From: Chaetoderma sp. LZ-2023a
Taxonomy: Eukaryota > Mollusca > Caudofoveata > Chaetodermatida > Chaetodermatidae
Assembly: GCA_034401795.1 (NCBI GenBank)
Contig: CM067366.1
Coordinates: forward strand, 76,470,207 to 76,534,206
Direction of reading: 5' to 3'
Length of the DNA: 64,000 nucleotides
The notes below the pieces were generated by a model. The model searched no databases, was not told where the DNA came from, and saw only the letters and a program-made list of their open reading frames with translations. The position numbers and the translations under genes are program-made. Below, piece after piece: positions 5,794 to 60,076 of the stretch (positions within the stretch are counted from its first letter, which is position 1; every line of letters starts with the position of its first letter).

Positions 5794-7430
5794 AAAAATA
5801 ATGTATTAATGGTATGTACGGTTGGAATGGTAACCAAGACTTGGTGGTGATGGATTCATTGGATTCTATCATGGGTTAAAAAAATAACCCTTTCACCGAT
5901 GAATATATATCTCATTTTCATCGATACCATACAGGAAAACTGTTGAATATTTTGAAATTAATTTGACGTTGCTAACGTTATTAGAAAAACTATTTTTTGT
6001 CGAATATTTTTATTGACTTTTAACCATCATTACGCACAAATTGTATTTTAAATACTTTGCAATAACGTCAGACGTTTTAGATACGATGGTTAACATGTGG
6101 TCATTATGTCTCTGAGGGTACCGTTTATAGAATTGTATGTTGAGTGTACTTATGCTAAAAAGATTATTTGGTGCGTATGATTTATCCATACGTCTTGAAT
6201 AGCCGTGGGATCGGTCCTTAATCGAGTTACAAACACGGCACATGTTAATAACGAAAGAATGTTAAAGCACCAAGATCAATCTTGAATTGACATACAAACA
6301 TGTCATGTGTTAAGGAATACTATAAGAATATACCACCCGTCTCGTTCTAAGCATGGGATATTACAATGTCCTCGCCGAGAGTTTGTGAAAATCGATAATA
6401 ACGCCCGCTCACTGGCAATTGCTGTTTACCGGCGCTTAAAGATACGACAATTAAGAGCAACATTTTGAGCGTAGTAGCATAATCATAGATGACCGTTTAC
6501 TTCAAATATAAATATATCCTTTTGGCTACAGAGCAGTGATACGTTATAACCATGTTTTTTACTTTATAATTCAGTCCTGCCCTAAGCGACCACCTCGTGT
6601 TGCGCCATTACATGGACGCTATTAACCCTTTTAACCCTCGAATTTCTTCAAGAAAATGTCCATTTTCTTCATCATATTACAAGAGAAGACTATTTTTGAA
6701 ATTTTTTTATCAGAATGACTGGCACTGCAGGCTATCCATTTGTCTAGTCATTGCGCCGGCAAACACCCTCCACCAACACCTACCACCACCAACACTACGA
6801 CCTACACCCAACACCATGCGTTAACCCCACCACCACCCACGCACCCGCCAACCCATAGCGAATTTCTTCATATTCATACTTGCATCCTTAGAGAACACTA
6901 TTTTTGAAAATTTATCATCGGAATGACTGGCACTGCAGGCTATCCATTTGTCTAGTCATTGCACCGGCAAACACCCCCCACCAACCACCATCATCATCAC
7001 CAACACCCACCACCACCACCACTATGACCTACACCCAACACCATGCGTTAACTCCACCACCACCACCACCCACGCACCCGCCAACCCATAGTGAATTTCT
7101 TCATATTCATACTTGCGTCCTTAGAGAAGACCATCTTTGAAAATGTATCATCGGAATGACTGACTTTGACAGTTATCCATTAGTCTAGATATTGTGGTCA
7201 TAATGTGTGAGAGCGCGGTGTCTGAAAAATGCTATGTAGGTTGGAGAGGGTATGTCATGAGGGTTTGATATAGGTCACGCTCGTATGAACATGTGCTAAT
7301 ACGCGATACTGCTAGTTATACGTTGTACCCTTGTGCGTGCGTGCATTCCGCGGTGTGCGCCCTTGTGTGCATGCGTGCGCCAGAAGACTTTTTGAAATTT
7401 TTTCATCGGAATGACTGGCTCTGCTGGCTA
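5794..7430. repeat. Interior of copy 1 upstream of the minisatellite
   Basis: Matches about 52690-54400 in copy 2. No gene seen. The part at 6620-7165 repeats a unit ending in a CACCAACAC-rich stretch. Each unit starts with TTTTTGAAA and then GAATGACTGGC, the latter found again near 7411. Confidence 0.6.
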
Positions 7431-7432
7431 AA

Positions 7433-8218
7433 ATGTATACGTACATGTGCGAATGCATGCGGTCCGCATGTTGTGAATTTGTGGGCGTATCTTGCGGATT
7501 GCGGGCGCATGATGCGGATTTGTGGGCGTATGTTGCGGATGGCACCAAGTGTATGTACATGCCTGAACACGCATACATGCCAAAATGCATGCATACATGT
7601 GCGGCCACATGCAGGCCGCATTTGCGGATTTGCGGGCGTATGTTGCGGATTGCGGGCATATGATGCGGATTTGCGGGCATATGTTGCGGATTTGCGGGCG
7701 CATGATGCGGATTTGCGGGTGTGTGTTGCGGATGGCACCAAGTGTATGTACATGCCTGAACATGCATACACGCCAAAATGCATGCATACATGTGCGGCCG
7801 CATGTGGGCTGCATTTGCCGATTTGCGGGCGTATGTTGCAGAATGCGGGCGCATGATGTGGATTGCGGGCATATGTTGCGGATTGCTGGCGTATGATGTG
7901 GATTTGCGGGCGTATGTTGCGGATTTGCGGGCGCATGATGCGGATATGCGGGTGTGTCTTGCGGATGGCACCAAGTGTATGTACATGCCTGAACATGCAT
8001 ACACGCCAACATGCATGCATACATGTGGGCCGCATGCAGGCCGCATTTGCGGATTTGCGGGTGTGTGTTGCAGATGGCACCAAGTGTATGTACATGCCTG
8101 AACATGCATACACACCAAAATGCATACATACATGTGCGGCCGCATGCGGGCCACATTTGCGGATTTGTGGCCGTATGTTGCGGATTAGCGGGCGCATATT
8201 GCGGATTTGCGGCCGCAG
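7433..8218. repeat. GC-rich minisatellite upstream of gene A, copy 1
   Basis: Built of GCGGATTTGCGGGCGYATG units and a longer higher-order segment containing GGCACCAAGTGTATGTACATG and ACATGTGCGGCCGCATG. The long segment occurs about four times (near 7534, 7728, 7964 and 8073). The array lacks stop codons in many frames on both strands, so it gives overlapping long open frames that are not genes. It ends in GCGGCCGC, close to the TATA box of gene A. Confidence 0.9.
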
Positions 8219-8230
8219 TACATATAATCC

Positions 8231-8296
8231 TATAAATGGTACAAATTCAATCCCTTTTCTCATTCCAGTTTAAACATCGCAAAGTGGTTGGACGTA
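8231..8296 (+). promoter_or_regulatory. Core promoter of gene A, copy 1 (TATA, Inr, DPE-like)
   Basis: TATAAA at 8231-8236. The Inr TCATTC has its A at 8262, exactly 31 bp from the first T of the TATA box. GGACGT at +29 matches the DPE consensus, displaced by one base. The same arrangement precedes every gene copy in both elements. The predicted 5' UTR is about 117 nt. Confidence 0.7.
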
Positions 8297-8378
8297 TAAC
8301 TGCAGAGTAGTAAGGCAGTCAGATTTCTTTGAAGATCCTTGTAACTTGAATACTTGCTAGATTTATGCTATAATCACT

Positions 8379-8959
8379 ATGCCGAGACATAAATGTTTTG
8401 AATGTGGTTCAACTTTTAATAGGTCAAATGACCTGAAGCGGCATAAGATCCGATTCCATAACGATGAGGATAGCGAAAATCTAGACAGTGAAGATGAAGA
8501 AATGACAGAGATGAAGAGTGAAGATGATGCGTCAGCGCAGTCGGAGAGTGAAGCCGGTAATGACTCAGCGGAGACTGAGTGTGAAGATGAAGGTGAAGAT
8601 GAAAAAGAAGACATAGGCAATGAGGAACTATTTACCATATTCCAAAATATTAAGCAGGTCTTAGATGCTGAACAATCAGACCTGCATGGTGTAGGCAATG
8701 TGCCTATTTCCGTATATGCTGATGCTTTAGTTACAAAGTGTATAGACATAATGCTCCAGTCGAGAAGATTACAGAACTCTATGCTCATTAAAATAATTCG
8801 TCAGGAAATTAAAGATTTTATCGACGAGGGGTATGCATACGATGAAGCAGTCTTCTCAGCCTTTCGAGAACGAGAGTTCTGACCAAGAAGTACATAAGGA
8901 ACCATCTAGATGCTTAGGATAATGATGATGATTCTGTCGGCGATAGATCTGATCCATAA
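8379..8959 (+). pseudogene. Gene A copy 1: broken C2H2 zinc-finger/acidic protein
   Basis: The degenerate counterpart of the 204-aa gene at 54940-55554. The N-terminus is intact: a C2H2 finger (C6, C9, H22, H27, with F13 and L19) followed by an acidic Ser/Glu/Asp stretch. It lacks 33 bp in the middle, after 'DAEQS'. A single-base deletion near 8870 replaces the last helix and brings a stop at 8880-8882, after 167 residues. In the original frame a second stop (GAG to TAG) follows near 8913. The homologous end of the gene is at 8959. The cellular role is unknown; a nuclear DNA-binding role is inferred from the finger. The promoter and poly(A) signal are still present, so a truncated protein could be made. 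Confidence 0.78.
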
Positions 8960-9345: not shown

Positions 9346-9479
9346 GGTTGTAGGTGGTTGCAGCCGCAATGTGCAGACAATGGTTAGCCAACTATATTAT
9401 TTTTGTTGTCGGGGGTCTCATTGACTAGGTACTCATAATGCATTCATACTGTGTGTACCCGGACATGGTAATTTTTCCT

Positions 9480-10640
9480 AGTTTTATTAACTTTAACTGG
9501 CTGACTGGCGAGGTGTTTCAGACATTCCAGGGATCTACTTCCTAGCAAAATATTATGGAAACGATTTGAGCAAAAGTTGATGCAGAGAGTCAAATTATTT
9601 TCAAAATATTCACTAAATAGCATGGACATGATTTGAGAGAAAGTTGTCGCTAACACCTCAGTCAAATTATTTTCAAAATATTCGTACAACGCGCATTGTC
9701 AGCCTTGTAAACATGTATGCTAGTATACCTCATCCCTCGTGCCAGGCAGCACGGCGCTAGCATACATCATCCCTTCTCCTCCTAACTCGTTTGACCTCAA
9801 TTAGGCGACCACCTCTACACTCATTCCAGAGATGTTATTTTCTGATTCTTCAAACCTATATCATGGCGCATTGGTAGTTTAAGCGAATAGTTTTGATACT
9901 AATTTGACATAGGAAGCTACAATTCGCCCTAGCGCCTTCGTGCACACAAACTCTTAATAAAGTGCTGTTCAATGCGACAATTTGACATAGGAAGCCATGA
10001 TTCAGCTTAGTTTCAAAATACATTTTTACTACAACCACGAGGGACCGCATCGACCACCTAATACGTTAAACGATACAAGGGTGCGCATCAGTATTTGTCA
10101 ACGATGACGATGGTGGGCATTGTTCCCACTATTTTTTTAACAATTTTTAAAATTTAATAATTAAATGACTGCCGCTTTAAAGAGCACTCCTTAAATACGA
10201 GATGCATGATTATTATCTATATAATATTATGGATACAACATCGCTTGGCTTAGCTATATATTACCCGCATAGAGATGTACTTTGCCCTCTGTTAAAAAAA
10301 TTAAATGACTGGTAGGAAGCCGCTTAGTTTTAAGGGTTTTAGATGAAGGTTAACGCATTTGCATACAAATTGAAGGATTAAAAGCGAATCATAGATGCTT
10401 TATGCACAATAACGAGGTGGTCAGAGAAAACATATTTCCCTGGATACTTTTTTAACGCGCACAAATTTTTATGCTCATATACCATTTAACAAACTGATCC
10501 ATGGCGTCTATCCCGTGAACATATCCAAGATTTTCGCCTGCATGTATGTGTCATTATATGGAGGCCAGTACGGGACAGTTTTTGATAGGACGCTAGTCAT
10601 CTCACGCGATATTCCTTACATTTTTTTGTAGTAGAGCGAT
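9480..10640. repeat. Inner arm segment shared with copy 2
   Basis: Matches 56070-57260 directly and 51600-52690 inverted. Copy 1 has it only on the right side, while copy 2 has it in both arms. No gene is seen. It contains GACATAGGAAGC and TTTCAAAATA blocks and several CAGTCAAATTATTTTCAAAATATTC motifs (written here as a family; individual copies vary). Confidence 0.75.
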
Positions 10641-48518: not shown

Positions 48519-50330
<1,812 letters not shown>

Positions 50331-50507
50331 TAAATTTTTCAAAAATATGAACAAAATGCATTCCTAGTCAATGGCAATGCATTAATCGGCCACGAACAAT
50401 AGCGTACAGATGGCCATTTAGAACAGTAGCATCCATCGACCACTTTTGATGGATCAGAATGTGTGCTTGCGTATGCATGTGTGAAGCGGGTTGTCGTGTG
50501 TAAAAAC

Positions 50508-50513
50508 TTTATT
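50508..50513 (-). terminator. AATAAA downstream of gene B
   Basis: Minus-strand AATAAA about 87 nt past the gene B stop, next to a genome-encoded A-run (T-run on the plus strand at about 50517-50531). It could act as a back-up polyadenylation site behind the histone-type stem-loop. Confidence 0.45.
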
Positions 50514-50544
50514 ACATTTTTTTTTTTTTTTGAACATATAAAGA

Positions 50545-50582
50545 GTTCTCTTTCAAATGATTTGTGGGCCCTGAAAAGGGCC
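50545..50582 (-). terminator. Histone-type mRNA 3' stem-loop and downstream element
   Basis: On the minus strand, GGCCCTTTTCAGGGCC occupies 50582-50567: a 6-bp stem with a TTTC loop, the established replication-dependent histone 3' stem-loop. It starts 17 nt after the gene B stop. The 5' flank is A-rich (CTCAAAACAC) and the 3' flank is CACAAATCA. About a dozen nt further is TTGAAAGAGAAC, which resembles the purine-rich histone downstream element bound by U7 snRNA (core AAAGAG). The full arrangement matches a histone pre-mRNA processing signal. No histone coding sequence is nearby. Use for gene B is inferred from position. Confidence 0.72.
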
Positions 50583-50599
50583 GTGTTTTGAGATAGGTC

Positions 50600-50908
50600 T
50601 CAGTCTTCGCAGATCTGCACAGGCGCGGTTGTCAGTTTGGTAACAAACTGCGTCATGTTTGCTTTTTGTATATCAGTCGGAGTATCGCCGATTACAGGAC
50701 ACCCATGCGGATACTGCTTGATTGGTAAAAGACAATAGCACTCCTTGCAGGTGTACACCATCTCTTTAGGTACTGTTTTCTTGATCATACGCCTACAGAC
50801 CCTCTCGTGTTTTGACCGTCGGCATATGGTGTAGTGGATATCGATGGAACACCAACGACATCGCACATACCCAGTATCTGATCTGTCAAAGTTTGTACTG
50901 CTGGCCAT
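50600..50908 (-). CDS. Gene B, intact: 102-aa protein with two Cys/His zinc clusters
   Basis: I do not recognise a family. The ATG at 50908 has a strong context (A at -3, G at +4). An upstream in-frame GTG extension through the TA repeat would add only Ile-Tyr repeats and is rejected. Cluster 1 is C17-X2-C20 then H34-X3-C38 (CX2CX13HX3C, C2HC-like). Cluster 2 is C54-X2-C57 (with C59) then H68-X-C70. The region between is basic, suggesting nucleic-acid binding; this is inference. The gene lies in the left inverted arm, reading toward the element terminus. It has the shared TATA-Inr promoter, a 5' UTR of about 270 nt that includes a TA microsatellite, and a histone-type stem-loop 17 nt after the stop. 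The inverted partner at 58091 differs at about five of the first 67 residues but keeps every Cys and His present in the shared part. Confidence 0.72.
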
Positions 50909-50963
50909 TTTAGCCAAATGTACATTAACATTTACATTTATACCACATCGCTCTACTACAAAA

Positions 50964-51086
<123 letters not shown>

Positions 51087-51142
51087 AATATCACGTGAGA
51101 TGAAATCTGACTGCCTAAGGTTACCTAACTACTCTGCAGTTA

Positions 51143-51208
51143 GACATCCAACCACTTTGCGATGTTTAAACTGGAATGAGAAAATGGATTGAATTTGTAC
51201 CGTTTATA
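51143..51208 (-). promoter_or_regulatory. Core promoter of gene B (TATA, Inr, DPE-like)
   Basis: Minus-strand TATAAA at 51208-51203 and Inr TCATTC with its A at 51177, again 31 bp apart, with GGATGT at +29. Sequence is nearly identical to the gene A promoter from the TATA box to about +60, although the genes differ. Confidence 0.7.
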
Positions 51209-51227
51209 GGAATATAAATACTGCGGC

Positions 51228-51593
51228 CGCAAATCCACAAACATGCGGACCGCATGCGGCCGCACATGTACGCATGCATATTGGTGTGTATGCGTGTTCA
51301 GGCATACGCATATACTTGTTGCCATCCGCAACACGAGCCCGCAAAGCCGCACACGCGCCCGCATGCGGTCGCGCATGTACGTATGCATTTCGGCGTGCAT
51401 GTGTGTTCAGACATGTTCATATACTTGATGCCATCCGCAACAAGTTAACAAGTCAACAGCCATAACACGAGCCCGCAAATCCGCAACATGCGCCCCCAAG
51501 TGGCCACACATGTACGCATGCATTTTGGCGTGTATGCGTGTTCAGGCATGTGCATATACTTGTTGCCATCCGCAACATGCGCCCGCAAATCCG
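51228..51593. repeat. GC-rich minisatellite, left arm of copy 2
   Basis: Inverted relative of 57288-57880 but shorter. It directly abuts the gene B promoter through GCGGCCGC. Open frames across it are repeat artefacts. Confidence 0.88.
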
Positions 51594-52690
51594 CATTAAC
51601 ATTTACATTTATACTACATCGCTCTACTACAAAACACGTAAGGAATATCGCGTGAGATGACTAGCGTCCTATCAAAAACTGTCGCCTACTGGCCTCCATA
51701 TAATGACATACATGCAGGCGAAAATCTTGGATATGCACACGGGCTAGATGCGATGGATCAGTTTGGTAAATGGTTTATGCGCATAAAAATCTGTGCACGT
51801 TAAAAAAAGTATCCAGGGAAATATGTTTTCTCTGACCACCTCGTTATTGTGCATAAAGCATCTATGATTCGCTTGTAATCCTTCAATTTGTATGCAAACG
51901 CGGTAACCTTCATCTAAAACCCTCAAACATGAAACTAAGCGGCTTCCTACCAGTCATTTAATTTTTTAAAAGAGAGCAAAGTACATCTCTATGCGGGTAA
52001 TATATAGCTAAGCCACGCGATGTTGTATGCATACTATTACACAGATAATAATCATGCATCTCGTATTTAAGGAGTGGTCTTTAAAGCGTCAGCCATTTAC
52101 TTATTAAATTCTAAAAATTGTTATAAAAACGGTGGGAACAATGTCCACCGTCGTCATCGTTGACGAATAATGACGAGCACCCTTGTATTGTTTAACCTAT
52201 TAGGTGGTCGATGTGGTCCCTCGTGGTTGTAGTAAAAAAGTATTTTGAAACTAAGCCGAATCGTGGCTTCCTATGTCAAATTGTCGCATTGAACAGCACG
52301 TTTTTAAGAGTTTGTGCGCACGAAGGCGCTAGTGCGAATTTTAGCTTCCTATGTCAAATTAGTACCAAAACTATTCGCTTAAACTACCAATGCGCCATGA
52401 TATAGGTTTGAAAAATCAGAAAATAACATCCCTTGAATGAGTGTAGAGGTGGTCGCATAATTGAGGTCGAACGAGTGAGGAGGAGGAGGAGGAGGTATGA
52501 GGTATACTAGCATACTCGTTTACAAGGTCGGCAATGCGCATTGTACGAATATTTTGAAAATAATTGGACTGCGGTGTTAGCAACAACTTTCTATCAAATC
52601 ATTTCCATGATATTTAGTGAATATTTTGAAAATAATTTGACTGTCTGCATCAACTTTTGCTCAAATCGTTTCCATACTATTTTGCCAATG
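51594..52690. repeat. Inner left arm, inverted copy of 56170-57280
   Basis: Matches the complement of 56170-57280 nearly throughout. No gene seen. It starts with a duplicate of the gene B leader (TTAACATTTACATTTATACT), so that leader flanks the minisatellite on both sides. Confidence 0.82.
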
Positions 52691-54411
52691 CAAATAAATA
52701 ATCTTGTATTAATGGTATGTTCGGTTGGAATGCTAACCAAGACTTGGTGGTGATGGATTGTATCCTGGGTTAAAAAGAAGTTAACCCTAATACCGATGAA
52801 TATATATCTCATTTTCACCGATACCATACAGGTAAACTGTTGAATATTTTGAAATTAATTTGACGTCGCTAACGTAAAACTATTTTTTGTTGTATATTTT
52901 GATTGACTTTTAACCGTCATTACGCACAAATTGTTTTTTAAATACTTTGCAATAACGTCAATCGTTTTAGATACGATGGTTAAAATGTGGTCATTATATC
53001 TCTGAGGGTTCCGTTTATAAAATTGTATGTAGAGCGTACTTATGCTAAAAAGATTATTTGTTGCGTTTGATTTAACCATACGTCTTGAATAGCCGTGAGA
53101 TCGGTCCTTAATCGAGTTACAAACACGGCACGTGTTAATAATGAAAGAATGTTAAAACACCACCCATCTCGTTCTAAGCACGGGATATTACAATGTCCTC
53201 GACGAGAGTTTAAAAAAATCGATAATAACTCCTGCAACCGCTCACCAGCTATTGCTGTTTACCGACGCTTAAAGATACGACAATTAAGAGCAACATTACA
53301 AGGGTAGTAGCATAATCAGGGATGGCCGTTTACTACAAATATAAATATATCCGTGTGGCTACAGAGCTGTGATACGTTATAACCATGTTTTTTACTATAT
53401 AATTCAGTCCTGCCCTAAGCGACCACCTCGTGTTACGCCATTACATGGATGCTATTAACCCTTTTTAACCCTCGAATTTCTTCAAGAAAATGTCCATTGT
53501 CTTCATCATAGTACAAGAGAAGACTGTTTTTGAAAACTTATCATCGGAATGACTGGCACTGCAGGCTATTCATTTGTCTAGTCATTGCGCCGGCAAACAC
53601 CCCCCCCCCCACCCCCACCAACCACCATCATCATCACCAACACCCACCACCACCAACACTACGACCTACACCCAACACCATGCATTAACCCCACCACCAC
53701 CCACGCACCCGCCAACCCATAGCGAATTTCTTCATATTCATACTTGCATCCTAAGAGAAGACTATTTTTGAAAATTTATCACCAGAATGACTGACTCTGA
53801 CAGCTATCCATTTATCTAGACATTGTGGTCGGAATGTGTGAGAGCTCTGTGTTTGAAAAAAATGGCATATAGGTTGGAGAGGGTATGGCAATGAGGATTT
53901 AATAAACGTCTCGCCCGTATGCACACGTGCTAATACGCGATACATCTAGTTATACGTTGTGCACTTGTGCGTAGGTGCGTGCGTGCAACACTATGACCTA
54001 CACCCAACACCAGGCATTAACCCCACCACCAACACCCACCCACCCGACAACCCATAGCGAATTTCTTCATATTCATACTTGCAGCCCTAGAGAAGAATAT
54101 CTTTGAAAATGTATCATCGGAATGAGTGCCTCTGACAGCTATCCATGTGTCTAGACATTGTGGTCGTAATGTGTGAGAGCGCGGTGTCAGAAAAATGGTA
54201 TATAGGTTGGAGAGGGTATGTCGTGAGGGTTTAATATAGGTCACGCTCGAATGCACACGTGCTAATACGCGATACTGCTAGTTATACGTTGTGCCCTTGT
54301 GCGTAGGTGCGTGCGTGCCGTGGTGTGCGCGTGCGTGCGCCAGAAGACTTTTTGAAAAATTTTCATCGGAATGACTGGCTCTGCTGGCTAAAATGTATAC
54401 GTGTTGTGATT
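52691..54411. repeat. Central region of copy 2 upstream of gene A
   Basis: Direct match to 5794-7430 in copy 1. CACCACCAACACC-rich tracts follow GAATGACTGGC-type motifs near 53540 and 54370. No gene seen. Confidence 0.65.
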
Positions 54412-54778
54412 TTGCGGGCGTATGGTGCGGATTGCGGGCGCATGATGCGGATTTGCGGGCATATGTTGCGGATTGCGGGCGCATGATGCAGATTTGCGGG
54501 CGTATGTTGCGGATTTGCGGGTGTGTGTTTGGGCTGGCACCAAGTGTATGTACATGCCTGAACATGCATACACGCCAAAATGCATGCATACATGTGCGGC
54601 CGCATGCGGGCTGCATTTGCGGATTTGCGGGCGTATGTTGCGGATTGCGGGGGCATGATGTGGATTGCGGGCGTATGTTGTGGATTGCGGGCACATGATG
54701 CGGATTTGTGGGCGTATGATGCGTATTGCGGGCGTGTGTTGCGGATTTGCGGGTGCATATTGGGGATTTGCGGCCGCA
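54412..54778. repeat. GC-rich minisatellite upstream of gene A, copy 2
   Basis: About 370 bp of the GCGGATTGCGGGCGYATG family with one long higher-order segment, versus about 790 bp in copy 1. Confidence 0.9.
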
Positions 54779-54791
54779 GTACATATAATCC

Positions 54792-54856
54792 TATAAATGG
54801 TACAAATTCAATCCCTTTTCTCATTCCCGTTTAAGCATCGCAAAGTGGTTGGACGT
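54792..54856 (+). promoter_or_regulatory. Core promoter of gene A, copy 2
   Basis: TATAAA at 54792-54797, Inr TCATTC with A at 54823 (31 bp), and GGACGT at 54851-54856 (+29). The predicted 5' UTR to the ATG at 54940 is 117 nt. Confidence 0.72.
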
Positions 54857-54939
54857 GTAACTGCAGAGTAGTTAGGCGGTCAGATTTCTTTGAAGAACCT
54901 TGTAACTTGAATACTTGCTAGATTTATCCTATAATCAAT

Positions 54940-55554
54940 ATGCCGAGACAGAAATGCTTTGAATGTGGTTCAACTTTTAATAGGTCAAATGACCTGAAGC
55001 GGCATAAGATCCGATTCCATAACGATAAAGACAGCAAAAATCTAGACAGTGAAGATGAAGAAATGACAGAGATGAATAGTGACGATGATGAGCCAGCGGA
55101 GTCGGAGTGTGAAGACAGTGATGACTCAGCGGAGACTGAGAGTGAAGATGAAGGTGAAGATGAAAAAGAAGACATAGGCAATGAGGAACTATTTACCATA
55201 TTCCAAAATATTAAGCAGGTCTTAGACGCTGAACAATCAGGTTTAGAAGATGAGGATGGTGAACTGGACACAGACCCAAATGGTGTAGGCAATGTGTCTA
55301 TTTCCGTATATGCTGATGCTTTAGTTACAAAGTGTATAGACATAATGTTCCAGTGGAGAAGATTACAGAACTCTACGCTCATTAAAATAATTCGTCAGGA
55401 AATTAAAGATTTTATCGACGAGGGGTACGCATACGATGAAGCAGTCGTCTCAGCTTTTCGAAAAATAAAGTTTTTGATCAAGAAGTACATAAGGAACCAT
55501 CTAGATGCTGAGGATAATGATGATGATTCTGACGGTGATAGATCTGATCCATAA
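54940..55554 (+). CDS. Gene A, intact: 204-aa C2H2 zinc-finger protein with acidic middle
   Basis: I do not recognise a named family. Residues 5-27 form a classical C2H2 finger (C6-X2-C9-X12-H22-X4-H27, with F13 and L19 in the core positions), so nuclear nucleic-acid binding is likely. Residues about 28-115 are rich in Asp, Glu and Ser, like an acidic activation or histone-mimic region. Residues about 120-190 look helical and conserved between copies ('VYADALVTKCIDIM', 'LIKIIRQEIKDFIDEGYAYD'), ending in a second acidic tail. There is no transposase DDE/DDD pattern. The ATG has A at -3. It is the only gene in the centre of the element, with its own promoter, minisatellite and poly(A) signal. 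The relative in copy 1 is broken, so this is the reference copy. Confidence 0.78.
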   Translation: MPRQKCFECGSTFNRSNDLKRHKIRFHNDKDSKNLDSEDEEMTEMNSDDDEPAESECEDSDDSAETESEDEGEDEKEDIGNEELFTIFQNIKQVLDAEQSGLEDEDGELDTDPNGVGNVSISVYADALVTKCIDIMFQWRRLQNSTLIKIIRQEIKDFIDEGYAYDEAVVSAFRKIKFLIKKYIRNHLDAEDNDDDSDGDRSDP

Positions 55555-55666
55555 GGAATCAGTCATCGATAAATGGATCTCCAGAACAGTGACTATTTGT
55601 TTATACTACAGCAACTATACGTTTTATCATATGTAATATTTACTTCAATGTAAAAATATGGATACA

Positions 55667-55672
55667 AATAAA
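55667..55672 (+). terminator. Poly(A) signal AATAAA for gene A
   Basis: About 113 bp after the stop, followed by a GGT-rich tract. No histone-type stem-loop is present, unlike gene B. Confidence 0.65.
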
Positions 55673-55771
55673 ACATTGGTTCTTTATGCGCGTATTGATT
55701 TGATGATTGTAGCTGCCCAGCCAGGTCCCCCCCCCCACATCCCTGAATATACAAATCGGAGTGCTGTTGTA

Positions 55772-55985
55772 CTTGGTGGTGGTGGTGGTGGTGGCGGTGG
55801 GGTTGGCGGTTGATGAAAATAGGTGTTGTGGTGGATGATGGTGGTGGGGTTAATACTTGGTGGTGGGTGTTGGTGCTTAGTGGGTAGTGGTGCTGATGGT
55901 TATAGAGGGATGGTGATGGTGGTGATGGTGGTGATGGTGATGGTGGCTGTAATGATGGTCGGTATTGGTAGTAGGTGGTTGCGCC
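55772..55985. repeat. (GGT)-rich simple repeat
   Basis: Counterpart of 9168-9345. Confidence 0.85.
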
Positions 55986-56169
55986 ACAATGTCCAGACAA
56001 TGGTTAGCCAACCATATTATTTTTGTTGTCAGGGGTCTCATTGACTAGGTACTCATAATGCATTCATACTGTGTGTACCCGGAGATGGTAATTTTTCCTA
56101 GTTTTATTACCTTTAACTGGCTGACTGGTGAGGTGTTTGAGACATTTCAGGGATCTACTTCCTAGCAAA

Positions 56170-57280
56170 ATATTATGGAAACGCTTTGAGCAAAAGTTGA
56201 TGCAGACAGACAAATTATTTTCAAAATATTCACTAAATATCATGGAAATGATTTGATAGAAAGTTGTTGCTAACACGGCAGTCAAATTATTTTCAAAATA
56301 TTCGTACAATGCGCATTGCCGACCTTGTAAACGAGTATGCTAGTATACCTCATCCCTCGTGCCAGGCAGCACCGTGCTAGCATACCTCATACCTCCTCCT
56401 CCTCACTCGTTCGACCTCAATTATGCGACCACCTCTACACTAATTCAAGGGATGTTATTTTCTGATCTTTCAAACCTAAATCATGGCGCATTGGTAGTTT
56501 AAGCGAATAGTTTTGATACTAATTTGGCATAGGAAGCTACAATTCGCACTAGCGCCTTCGTGCGCACAAACTCTTAAAAAAGTGCTGTTCAATGCGACAA
56601 TTTGACATAGGAAGCCACGATTCCGCTTAGTTTCAAAATACTTTTTTACTAAACCACGAGGGACCACATCGACCACCTAATACGTTAAACAATACAAGGG
56701 TGCTCGTTAGTATTCGTCAACGATGACGACAGTGGACATTGTTCCTACCATTTGTATAACAATTTTTAAAATTTAATAATTAAATGGCTGACGCTTCAAA
56801 GACCACTCCTTAAATACGAGGCGCATGATTATTATCTATGTAATATTATGCATACAACATCGCTTGACTTAGCTATATATTACCCGCATAGAGATGTACT
56901 TTGCTCTCTTTTAAAAAATTAAATGACTGGTAGGAAGCCGCTTAGTTTCATGTTTGAGGGTTTTAAATGAAGGTTAACGCGTTTGCATACAAATTGAAGG
57001 ATTAAAAGCGAATCATAGATGAGTTATGCACAATAACGAGGTGGTCAGAGAAAACATATTTCCCTGGATACTTTTTTAACGTGCACAGATTTTCATGCGC
57101 ATAAACCATTTAACAAACTGATCCATCGCATCTAGCCCGTGTACATATCCAAGATTTTCGCCTGCATGTATGTGTCATTATATGGAGGCCAGTAGGCGAC
57201 AGTTTGTGATAGGACACTAGTCATCTCACGCGATATTCCTTACATGTTTTGGAGTAGAGCGATGTAGTATAAACGTAAAT
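56170..57280. repeat. Inner right arm of copy 2
   Basis: Inverted partner of 51594-52690 and direct match to about 9540-10640 of copy 1. No gene seen. Confidence 0.82.
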
Positions 57281-57287
57281 GTTAATG

Positions 57288-57880
57288 CGGATTTGCGGGC
57301 GCATGTTGCGGATGGCAACAAGTATATGCACATGCCTGAACACGCATAGACGCCAAAATGCATGCGTGCATGTGCGGCCACATGCGGGCGCATGTTGCGG
57401 ATTTGCGGGCTCGTGTTATGGCTGTTGACTTGTTAACTTGTTGCGGATGGCACCAAGTATATGCACATGCCTGAACACACATACACGCCAAAATGCATAC
57501 GTACATGTGCGGCCGCATGCGGGCGCGTGTTGCGGATTTGCGGGCTCGTGTTGCGGATGGCAACACGTATATGCGTATGCCTGAACACGCATACACGCCA
57601 AAATGCATACGTACATGTGCGGCCGCATGCGGGCGCGTGTTGCGGATTTGCGGGCTCGTGTTGTGGATGGCACCAAGTATATGCACATGCCCGAACACAC
57701 ATACACGCCAAAATGCATACGTACATGTGCGGCCGCATGCGGGCGCGTGTTGCGGATTTGCGGGCTCGTGTTGCGGATGGCAACACGTATATGCGTATTC
57801 CTGAACACGCATACACGCCAAAATGCATGCGTACATGTGTGGCCGCATGCGGTCCGCATGTTGTGGATTTGCGGCCGCAG
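57288..57880. repeat. GC-rich minisatellite, right arm of copy 2
   Basis: Four higher-order units of about 110-120 bp, highly similar to each other (repeating from about 57430, 57550, 57660 and 57770). They end in GCGGCCGC at the gene B promoter. High similarity among units suggests recent amplification. Confidence 0.9.
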
Positions 57881-57892
57881 TACATATATACC

Positions 57893-57957
57893 TATAAACG
57901 GTACAAATTCAATCCATTTTCTCATTCCAGTTTAAACATTGCAAAGTGGTTGGATGT
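57893..57957 (+). promoter_or_regulatory. Core promoter of the truncated gene B
   Basis: TATAAA at 57893-57898, Inr TCATTC with A at 57924 (31 bp), and GGATGT at +29. Confidence 0.68.
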
Positions 57958-58090
57958 CTAACTGCAGGGCAGTTAGGTAACCTTAGGCAGTCAGATTTCA
58001 TCTCACGTGATATTCCTTATATATATATATATTTTTTTGGTAGTAGAGCGATGTGGTATAAATGTAAATGTTAATGTACATTTAGCTAAA

Positions 58091-58345
58091 ATGGCCAGCA
58101 GTACAAACTTTGACGGATCAGATACTGGGTATGTGCGATGTCGTTGGTGTTCCATCGATATCAGCGACACCATATGCCGACGGTCAAAACACGAGAGGGT
58201 CTGTAGGCGTATGGTCAAGAAAACAGAACCTAAAGAGATGGTGTACACCTGCAAGGAGTGCTATTGTCTATTACCAATCAAGCAGTATGACTGCTATTTT
58301 AGAGACATAAATACGATAGATAACACTATCTATATAATAGCATAG
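58091..58345 (+). pseudogene. Gene B, truncated copy fused to TIR sequence (84 aa)
   Basis: The first 67 residues match gene B at 50600-50908, including all of cluster 1 and C54, C57 and C59 of cluster 2. After 'LLPIKQY' the frame runs into TIR DNA, giving a 17-residue unrelated tail. The partner His-Cys of cluster 2, the histone-type stem-loop and the poly(A) signal are all missing. The break is a deletion of roughly 260 bp relative to the left arm, with little or no homology at the join. Substitutions relative to the intact copy are mostly outside the Cys and His positions. The promoter is intact, so it may still be transcribed. Confidence 0.78.
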
Positions 58346-58477
58346 GAAAAATTACTGTGTACGTGTCTGATTTTTTTTGAAAATTTAATGACTTTAATGA
58401 CACATTTTGCTCATATTTTTGAAATTTTAATAATTACATGACTTCATCTTTAAAGGATGGCCTTAAATACTTAAGAT

Positions 58478-58542
<65 letters not shown>

Positions 58543-60076
58543 CAACGTAGATCACTATAACCCGTTTAACGCAACGCTCTGATTTTTTTGAAAATTAAAT
58601 GACTGGGAGTTCGTTCATATTTTTAAAGAAATCTAATAATTAAATGATTGACGCTTTAAAGACATAAATATGGTAGATAAAACTATCTGTATAATATTAT
58701 ACAACATCGATCGTCAACGATGACCATTTCAACAACAATTTTGAAAATTTAATAATTAAATGACTGCCATTTTTAAAATGACTTAAACCAAGGAGGAGGT
58801 TAATGGTGACTAAACCACCAGCGGCTTATAATCAATTATTTTCAAAATTTCGTACAGAGATATCGCGCAGGACGTTGCCTCGGCGAATACGCTAGCATAT
58901 ACGTCAGCCATCCTCCTCATCCCTCGCGACACCTCTTTGAGCGACCACCTGCATTTTCTTAAAGGACCACCAGGTGAATAAAGGTGCTCATGCGCGGAGA
59001 ACAATGCCGAGCAGAGGGTGGCCGAGATAGCATTCCTCCCTCCTCCTTCGGCCACCTCTCTCTTACCTAACATCGTCTAATAAGAAAGTAAAATTTACAC
59101 AGTCAAATCGTGTTCAAAATATTCAGCAACCAATCAATTTATTCAGCAACCAATCAAAATATTCAGCAACCGATTATCATAATATTCAGCAACCAATTAT
59201 CAAAATATTCAGCTACCACTCAAATTATCATAATATTCAGCAACAAATTATCAAAATATTCGTACATCGTGCATACCTTGTAAACAAGTACGCTAGCATC
59301 GACCTCATAACCATCCAGCAATATCAACTGAGGAGGAATACTATAGCATTCCGCCTCAACTGACACAGACAGTCAAATTATTTTCAAAATATTCAACAGT
59401 TTTCCTGTATGGTATCGATGAAAATGAGATATGGGGAATTCATCGGTGAAAGGGTTAACTTCTTTTTAACCCATGATACAATCCATCACCACCAAGTCTT
59501 GGTTACCATTCCAACCGAACATACCATTAATACAAGATTATTTTTAATGTTTTGTTGCTAATCTGTCTGGTAGCTGTTGCTTACTAACAGCTTACAGACA
59601 GTCTCTAAATATTCTACAGTTTACTAATGACGTTAGCGACGAAACAGTCAAATTATTTTCAAACATCAATACCGTAATTCCTACATCCTCAACCTCATAC
59701 TCCTACAACCTCCGTTATCAGACCACCTCTTAAACTCTATTATTTTACATTACTCTCTTATTATTTTCACAACGGTAGATAACCACGGATGGGGGCGCGC
59801 CGCCGCTACGTTTAAACGTAAAATACACAACTTTAAAACTTTTAAGGGTTAACTAATTCAAAATAATAGAACATTCCAGAGTGAATATACATGTGCGGCT
59901 GGACGTCATTGTTATCGAGAAAAACCTGGCGTAACTGTTCCCTAGAATGCGTGTCGTTATAGTCGCCATTGTTCTCAACATTCCATTCCGCAAGCTTTTC
60001 CTTTGATCTCCTGAAAAACCCATTGTTCTCGAAGACCCCCTGCTGGGAAGAACAATAACGTCTAGCCTTAACTCCT
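58288..60076 (-). repeat. Right terminal inverted repeat of copy 2
   Basis: Inverted partner of 48519-50330. Its inner edge cuts into the truncated gene B copy at about 58291, so TIR sequence supplies that protein's tail. Confidence 0.88.
58484..58542. repeat. (TA)n microsatellite in right TIR
   Basis: Counterpart of 50027-50127. Confidence 0.93.

Follow-up and report, generated by a model that had tools for sequence, protein, structure and literature searches.

In a 64,000-nucleotide stretch of the genome of the caudofoveate mollusc Chaetoderma sp. LZ-2023a (contig CM067366.1, positions 76,470,207-76,534,206; hereafter the window), a small gene carried by a mobile element ends in a signal of the histone type, with a stem-loop just beyond the stop codon and a purine-rich block downstream. 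The element is repeated across the genome, and similar endings lie behind the genes of two further families of repeated elements. We consider it probable (roughly 0.7), from the sequence comparisons described here, that accessory genes of transposons in this genome possess a working histone-type (SLBP/U7) 3′ end. In histone genes, the stem-loop is the binding site of SLBP, and the downstream element base-pairs with the U7 snRNP; the pre-mRNA is cut a few nucleotides 3′ of the hairpin, giving an RNA that is stable in S phase. To our knowledge, hardly any gene outside the replication-dependent histone genes is considered to carry this stem-loop. The features of the window are collected in Table 1.

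Table 1. Features of the two mobile elements and of the gene B 3′ region (window coordinates).
Feature	Coordinates	Strand	Basis
Element 1, shorter TTAA-flanked relative of element 2, without gene B or stem-loop	4314..12272	.	
Gene A copy in element 1, 167 aa	8379-8882		
Element 2, body between TTAA copies (48524-48527, 60068-60071)	48528..60067	.	repeat comparison, end reading
Left inverted-repeat arm of element 2, carries gene B	48528..52685	plus	repeat comparison
AATAAA, possible polyadenylation signal, 53 nt past stem-loop	50508..50513	minus	direct reading
Block like the histone downstream element, GAAAGAGAACTCTTTAT, 12 nt past stem-loop	50538..50554	minus	histone-row comparison, R1 model
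Histone-type stem-loop GGCCCTTTTCAGGGCC, 6-bp stem and 4-nt loop	50567..50582	minus	pattern search, R1 model, direct reading
Gene B, 102 aa, two cysteine/histidine clusters	50600..50908	minus	ORF; intact in 19/21 copies compared
TATAAA upstream of gene B	50937..50942	minus	direct reading
Gene A of element 2, 204 aa, between the arms; one C2H2-like finger and an acidic stretch	54940..55554	plus	
Right inverted-repeat arm of element 2	56165..60067	minus	repeat comparison
Truncated second gene B copy, first 66 aa, in right arm of element 2; stem-loop part deleted	58091..58288	plus	

A first-pass annotation of this DNA had reported a histone-like stem-loop 17 nt past the stop of gene B and a purine block about a dozen nucleotides further on, and both proved to be present. 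Specifically, the TGA stop codon occupies 50600-50602 on the minus strand, the hairpin lies 17 nt beyond it, and the block begins at 50554. The generic stem-loop pattern GGYYYTTYTNARRRCC matched once in the 64 kb, with 0.01 matches expected from shuffled sequence, and the folding energy of the stem-loop, calculated on a 40-nt stretch, was −11.0 kcal/mol. The extent of the downstream match had been understated, as similarity to histone endings continues past GAAAGAG into CTCTTTAT-TG, a part also found in the histone genes of this genome (for example, TCGAAAGAGATCTCTTTATCTGC of H4). As to the statement that no histone gene is nearby, our check addressed stem-loops, by pattern and by the model R1 described below, and neither revealed a second one in the window.

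We next scored the site with covariance models. The Rfam histone 3′ stem-loop model, scoring with which had been proposed as a check, gave an unfavorable result: Histone3 (RF00032) assigned the gene B site 25.0 bits (E 1.4e-4 in a search of 801 nt) where its gathering score is 34 bits, so that a gathering-threshold scan of the window was empty. Under R1, a model constructed solely from histone 3′ ends, nine in number and all taken from this genome, the same site reached 50.3 bits (roughly calibrated E 3.4e-10) and the next best site in the 64 kb 12.9 bits; the R1 match also covers the half of the downstream region that follows GAAAGAG. When the 2.44-Gb genome was searched with the Rfam model, at least 48 sites were recovered from 75 scored of 417,551 candidates. 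Among 27 loci read around such stem-loop sites, 16 were histone genes (H1, H2A, H2B, H3 and H4) and 11 were non-histone. The host histone genes have a metazoan-type stem-loop, and their typical ending consists of GGCCCTTTTCAGGGCC, 12 or 13 nt, GAAAGAG, a few bases, TCT, and then TTTATCTGC or a near variant; the H2A of L025 and the H1 of L014 depart from this form. The stem-loop and block of gene B are 12 nt apart, and most histone rows have a distance of 12 or 13 nt; directly 3′ of the stem-loop, gene B has C and the histone rows have A. In the H4 endings (L003 to L008), the downstream element holds a palindrome, AAAGAGATCTCTTT, followed by ATCTGC, with which U7 could pair beyond its usual core. 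A search of the genome with the U7 model (RF00066) found no U7 gene among 65 scored of 490,415 candidates; control genomes were equally silent.

Stem-loop, 6 to 16 nt and an exact GAAAGA occur together at 459 places in the genome, compared to 0 for a reversed-pattern control. The same pattern had two matches in a 257-Gb prokaryotic collection, neither with a histone-like frame ahead of it, and 0 in viral contigs. Inverted and satellite repeats are plentiful in the elements, and a hairpin here might have arisen by chance or might serve transposition at the DNA level with no bearing on RNA. The first of these is ruled out for gene B by the 0.01 expectation in the window, the 459 to 0 genome count and the match to the downstream block. 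The extension of the match into that block, together with the lack of such a hairpin in the related element 1, also speaks against a DNA role, and we regard an origin of either kind as highly improbable.

The assignment of gene B to a mobile element was borne out: TTAA copies flank element 2, and both gene B and the arm that carries it are repeated across the genome. Element 2 is 11.5 kb long, with inverted arms of ∼4 kb each (48.5-52.7 kb and 56.2-60.1 kb). When 561 nt covering gene B served as the query, at least 40 full-length or nearly full-length copies of 95 to 100% identity were recovered, window included (1038 candidates); a 2461-nt query extending outward from gene B to beyond the terminal TTAA likewise recovered at least 40, window included (4309 candidates). 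In 22 of the 40 scored arm copies (window included), the match starts at position 1 or 2 of the query and reaches at least 2094; besides the window, seven of those 22 end at 2434-2443, the TTAA being query positions 2434-2437. At two places, C12 34.296-34.307 Mb and C2 121.481-121.491 Mb, two inverted arms lie within ∼10 kb, and only one arm of each pair is listed as having the gene B part. The C2H2-like finger of gene A scores 18.8 bits, under the Pfam cut-off of 25.2. Short satellite-like repeats are present inside the elements (7300-8260, 51200-51600, 54280-54790 and 57280-57960 of the window), some of them preceded by the same ∼50-nt segment that is found upstream of gene B.

Both window elements have TTAA at both ends. 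Directly inside it, the sequence is TTAA-GGG at three of the four ends and TTAA-GGC at the right end of element 2, whereas piggyBac ends are of the TTAA-CCC type. When the window was searched by tblastn with the transposase of a piggyBac element described below (SGNH1), the best E was 8.7 (control L034, E 0.0), and the six window ORFs scanned had no Pfam match to DDE_Tnp_1_7. Because a transposase match is absent and the ends read GGG or GGC rather than CCC, we do not class the window elements as piggyBac.

Gene B had been described as a zinc-finger gene. The positions of its cysteines and histidines (C17, C20, H34, C38 and C54, C57, H68, C70) agree with that description, and their spacing suggests two zinc-binding units; no Pfam family matched gene B above its cut-off, the best being zf-UBR with 11 bits (cut-off 25.2). 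Searches of Pfam, NCBIfam and the PDB sequences returned nothing above cut-off, and an AlphaFold2 prediction with 18 gene B copies had a mean pLDDT of 47.8. Neither gene A nor gene B had a relative, at the thresholds used, in a set of 5.8 billion proteins, a result of little weight as the set is apparently poor in animal proteins. Relative to the majority sequence, we counted 66 nonsynonymous changes over 240 sites and 42 synonymous changes over 66 sites, a raw ratio of 0.43 in a sample made up of the window and the best-scoring copies (L066, the twin of L065, was left out). Gene B thus looks to be under constraint as a protein, judging from this ratio.

For the signal itself, we compared the 20 best-scoring copies and the window, a choice biased towards intact copies. 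The gene B ORF is open in 19 of the 21, with a stop in L056 and a frameshift in L062. Conservation among copies, which the first-pass annotation had named as a check, gave a mixed outcome. Of 20 distinct copies, the window among them, 15 keep the exact 16-mer stem-loop; L051 has a wobble pair and L058 a loop change, and in three a pair is broken without compensation (the same second pair in L052 and L054, the first pair in L059). A mixture of this kind would be expected from drift in dead copies. Over the 20 distinct copies, the stem-loop changes at 5/320 positions, a rate like that of the ORF (108/6178) and the downstream flank (43/2240), and the spacer (13/240) and the downstream block (13/460) vary more, so purifying selection on the signal is not visible within the gene B family.

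These rates bear on the possibility that a captured histone 3′ end is now a passenger, the downstream AATAAA directing cleavage and polyadenylation of gene B RNA. Such a history would account for the AATAAA at 50508-50513, for a stem-loop and downstream block no more conserved than their surroundings, and for the fact that the gene B ending is nearest by score to an H2A ending. The AATAAA 53 nt past the stem-loop, the Rfam Histone3 score under the gathering score, the C in place of A after the stem-loop and the rates of change of the signal among gene B copies all count against a working histone-type end. The passenger explanation is opposed by the retention of the exact stem-loop in 15/20 distinct copies and, across a far deeper divergence, by the SGNH genes described below, in which a useless ending would be expected to have decayed. 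We consider it unlikely, though the most serious competitor to a working 3′ end.

Two other families, SGNH1 and SGNH2, carry the ending on transposon genes. In SGNH1 (L001, L002, L018-L021), the stem-loop lies 16 nt past the stop of an SGNH-hydrolase-like ORF; in SGNH2 (L022, L026), it lies 24 and 14 nt past the stop. Both have stem-loop and downstream block, and R1 scores of ∼70 bits for SGNH1 and 53 to 55 bits for SGNH2. In two copies (L030/L002 and L034/L019), the SGNH1 gene stands beside a divergent DDE_Tnp_1_7 transposase gene, which in L030 matches the family with an E of 1.9e-73 and in L034 is 91% identical to its L030 counterpart. The pair occupies 6616-8505 (-) and 9414-9977 (+) of L030, corresponding to the transposase and to the divergent SGNH-like gene with its stem-loop. 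The C4 copy of the element, counting later insertions, measures ∼14.6 kb. Its left ends are TTAA-CCC in six of the seven stretches printed, the seventh being an internal break, and its right ends are TTAA-CCC in two of four, with TTAA-TCC in L036 and a degraded end in L035. By transposase and ends, the SGNH1 element is classed as a piggyBac transposon. L018, L020 and L021 are internally deleted derivatives from which most of the ORF is gone, with the stem-loop and downstream block kept.

The SGNH1 and SGNH2 proteins share only 32% identity over 195 positions (E 5e-24). Because both families keep the ending at this divergence, its retention argues for long-term selection on it in transposon genes, and at the sequence level this would be the strongest evidence here that the ending functions on such genes. 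It is possible that the two families gained the ending separately. Several neighbors of these copies, named by eye, were considered and set aside as neighbors rather than carriers: a DIRS-like recombinase by L001, LINEs by L039 and L040, and virus-like ORFs in L041. Among the L001 copies, the SGNH part is common and the recombinase is not; for SGNH2, the LINE is present in both copies. The virus-like ORFs (L041:6189-8890, near the SGNH2 copy on C3) include an ATPase with weak similarity to Pox_A32 (17.5 bits against a cut-off of 22.8) and possibly belong to a Polinton-like element.

The 459 genomic matches allowed an estimate of how the signal is distributed. Eighty-six have A after the stem-loop, all of them listed: 72 histone, 6 SGNH1, 2 SGNH2, 4 gene-B-like, 1 at L027 and 1 unclassified. 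Six of the 72 histone sites were read, and the other 66 lie in three histone-cluster contigs and were assigned by place and type. The remaining 373 have a base other than A; of these, 92 were listed (contigs C1-C4), and 90 of them are of the gene B type by their spacer, the exceptions being C2:98059697 and C3:20530332. By extrapolation, gene-B-type endings would outnumber histone endings ∼5:1 in the assembly, in which tandem histone arrays may be collapsed. The other non-histone sites scored 33.3 (L013), 58.2 (L027) and 25.6 bits (L009) with R1. At L013:1506-1600, a histone stem-loop follows a short ORF, and a second, partial copy (CAAAGACCCTTTTCAG) lies ∼50 nt further. L027:1506 and C2:98059697 have similar spacers, with stem-loop and GAAAGA, and L027 is near a retroelement-like ORF.

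The excess of gene-B-type over histone endings in these exact-pattern counts would also suit a hairpin that acts as a decoy or recruiter, its transcripts titrating SLBP and U7 or bringing the element to histone locus bodies, with the ending of gene B a secondary matter. The signal is placed 14 to 24 nt past the stop in the window gene B, SGNH1 and SGNH2, a position to be expected if it forms the 3′ end of that gene, and we judge a primary decoy or recruiter role very improbable.

To examine where the ending came from, we compared the part of gene B after the stem-loop with other endings. Shuffle z scores were 6.6 and 7.2 for H2A, 3.7 to 6.3 for other histones and 5.8 for SGNH1. The two H2A endings share the same 42 nt, so shuffle noise is of the size of the difference between 6.6 and 7.2. 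An H2A ending is thus nearest by score, which is not decisive for an H2A origin over convergence; by these scores, capture from a histone gene and convergence cannot be told apart.

Taken together, R1 and the copies uphold the core of the first-pass interpretation, namely a histone-type 3′ end with a purine element on a mobile-element gene. For the working end that we favor, we propose the following model. Gene B would serve as an accessory gene to a DNA transposon that is present in many copies and has TTAA target sites and long inverted arms. On the transcript, SLBP would bind the gene B stem-loop and the U7 snRNP would base-pair with GAAAGAG, the cut being made between these two sites by the cleavage complex. 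The message would then end in the stem-loop, lack a poly(A) tail and accumulate mainly during DNA replication, with the downstream AATAAA possibly serving as a fallback. The element might thereby gain expression in replicating cells, such as dividing germ or embryonic cells, or an extra copy when it moves from replicated to unreplicated DNA. Processing by the histone route, S-phase expression and benefit to the element are what we infer from this arrangement. A more far-reaching proposal is that several unrelated TTAA transposons have repeatedly, and under selection, put accessory genes under replication-coupled histone-type 3′ ends, such that most histone endings in this genome are now transposon-owned; we consider it about as likely as not. 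If true, it would amount to a strategy by which transposons time their expression to S phase, and it might bring competition for SLBP and U7.

We know of no piggyBac transposon with a histone-type ending, and the titles and abstract openings found by a literature search on the histone stem-loop, SLBP or U7 with transposons contained no report of transposons with histone endings. In a paper that tabulates, for Octopus vulgaris, 474 piggyBac insertions of recent activity (PMC13282606), the words "histone" and "stem-loop" occur 0 times in the main text, by word search. A transposon family with many such endings, together with the other transposon genes, would indicate that the ending can be acquired and kept outside histones. 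These genes would provide a natural assay for the role of the histone ending on non-histone genes, and the coupling of transposons to host replication would become testable at RNA 3′ ends.

Among known transposons, the window elements share TTAA target sites with Kolobok; this likeness is one of TTAA, no long transposase-like ORF having been recognized in the window elements. With piggyBac they share the flanking TTAA copies and differ in showing no match to a piggyBac transposase and in their TTAA-GGG or TTAA-GGC ends, whereas the SGNH1 element resembles piggyBac in both its DDE_Tnp_1_7 transposase and its TTAA-CCC ends. SGNH1 and SGNH2 weakly match the SGNH/GDSL hydrolases (Lipase_GDSL_2, PF13472; 17.5 and 15.3 bits, respectively) and are unlike them in falling below the cut-off of 32.9, in residing in repeated elements and in being ended by a histone stem-loop. 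Compared to a replication-dependent histone 3′ end (RF00032), that of gene B belongs to a non-histone, transposon-borne gene, has C for A after the stem-loop and is followed by AATAAA; it resembles the histone end in its 16-nt stem-loop, identical to that of the histone genes of this genome, in its closeness to the stop codon and in a purine block at histone spacing.
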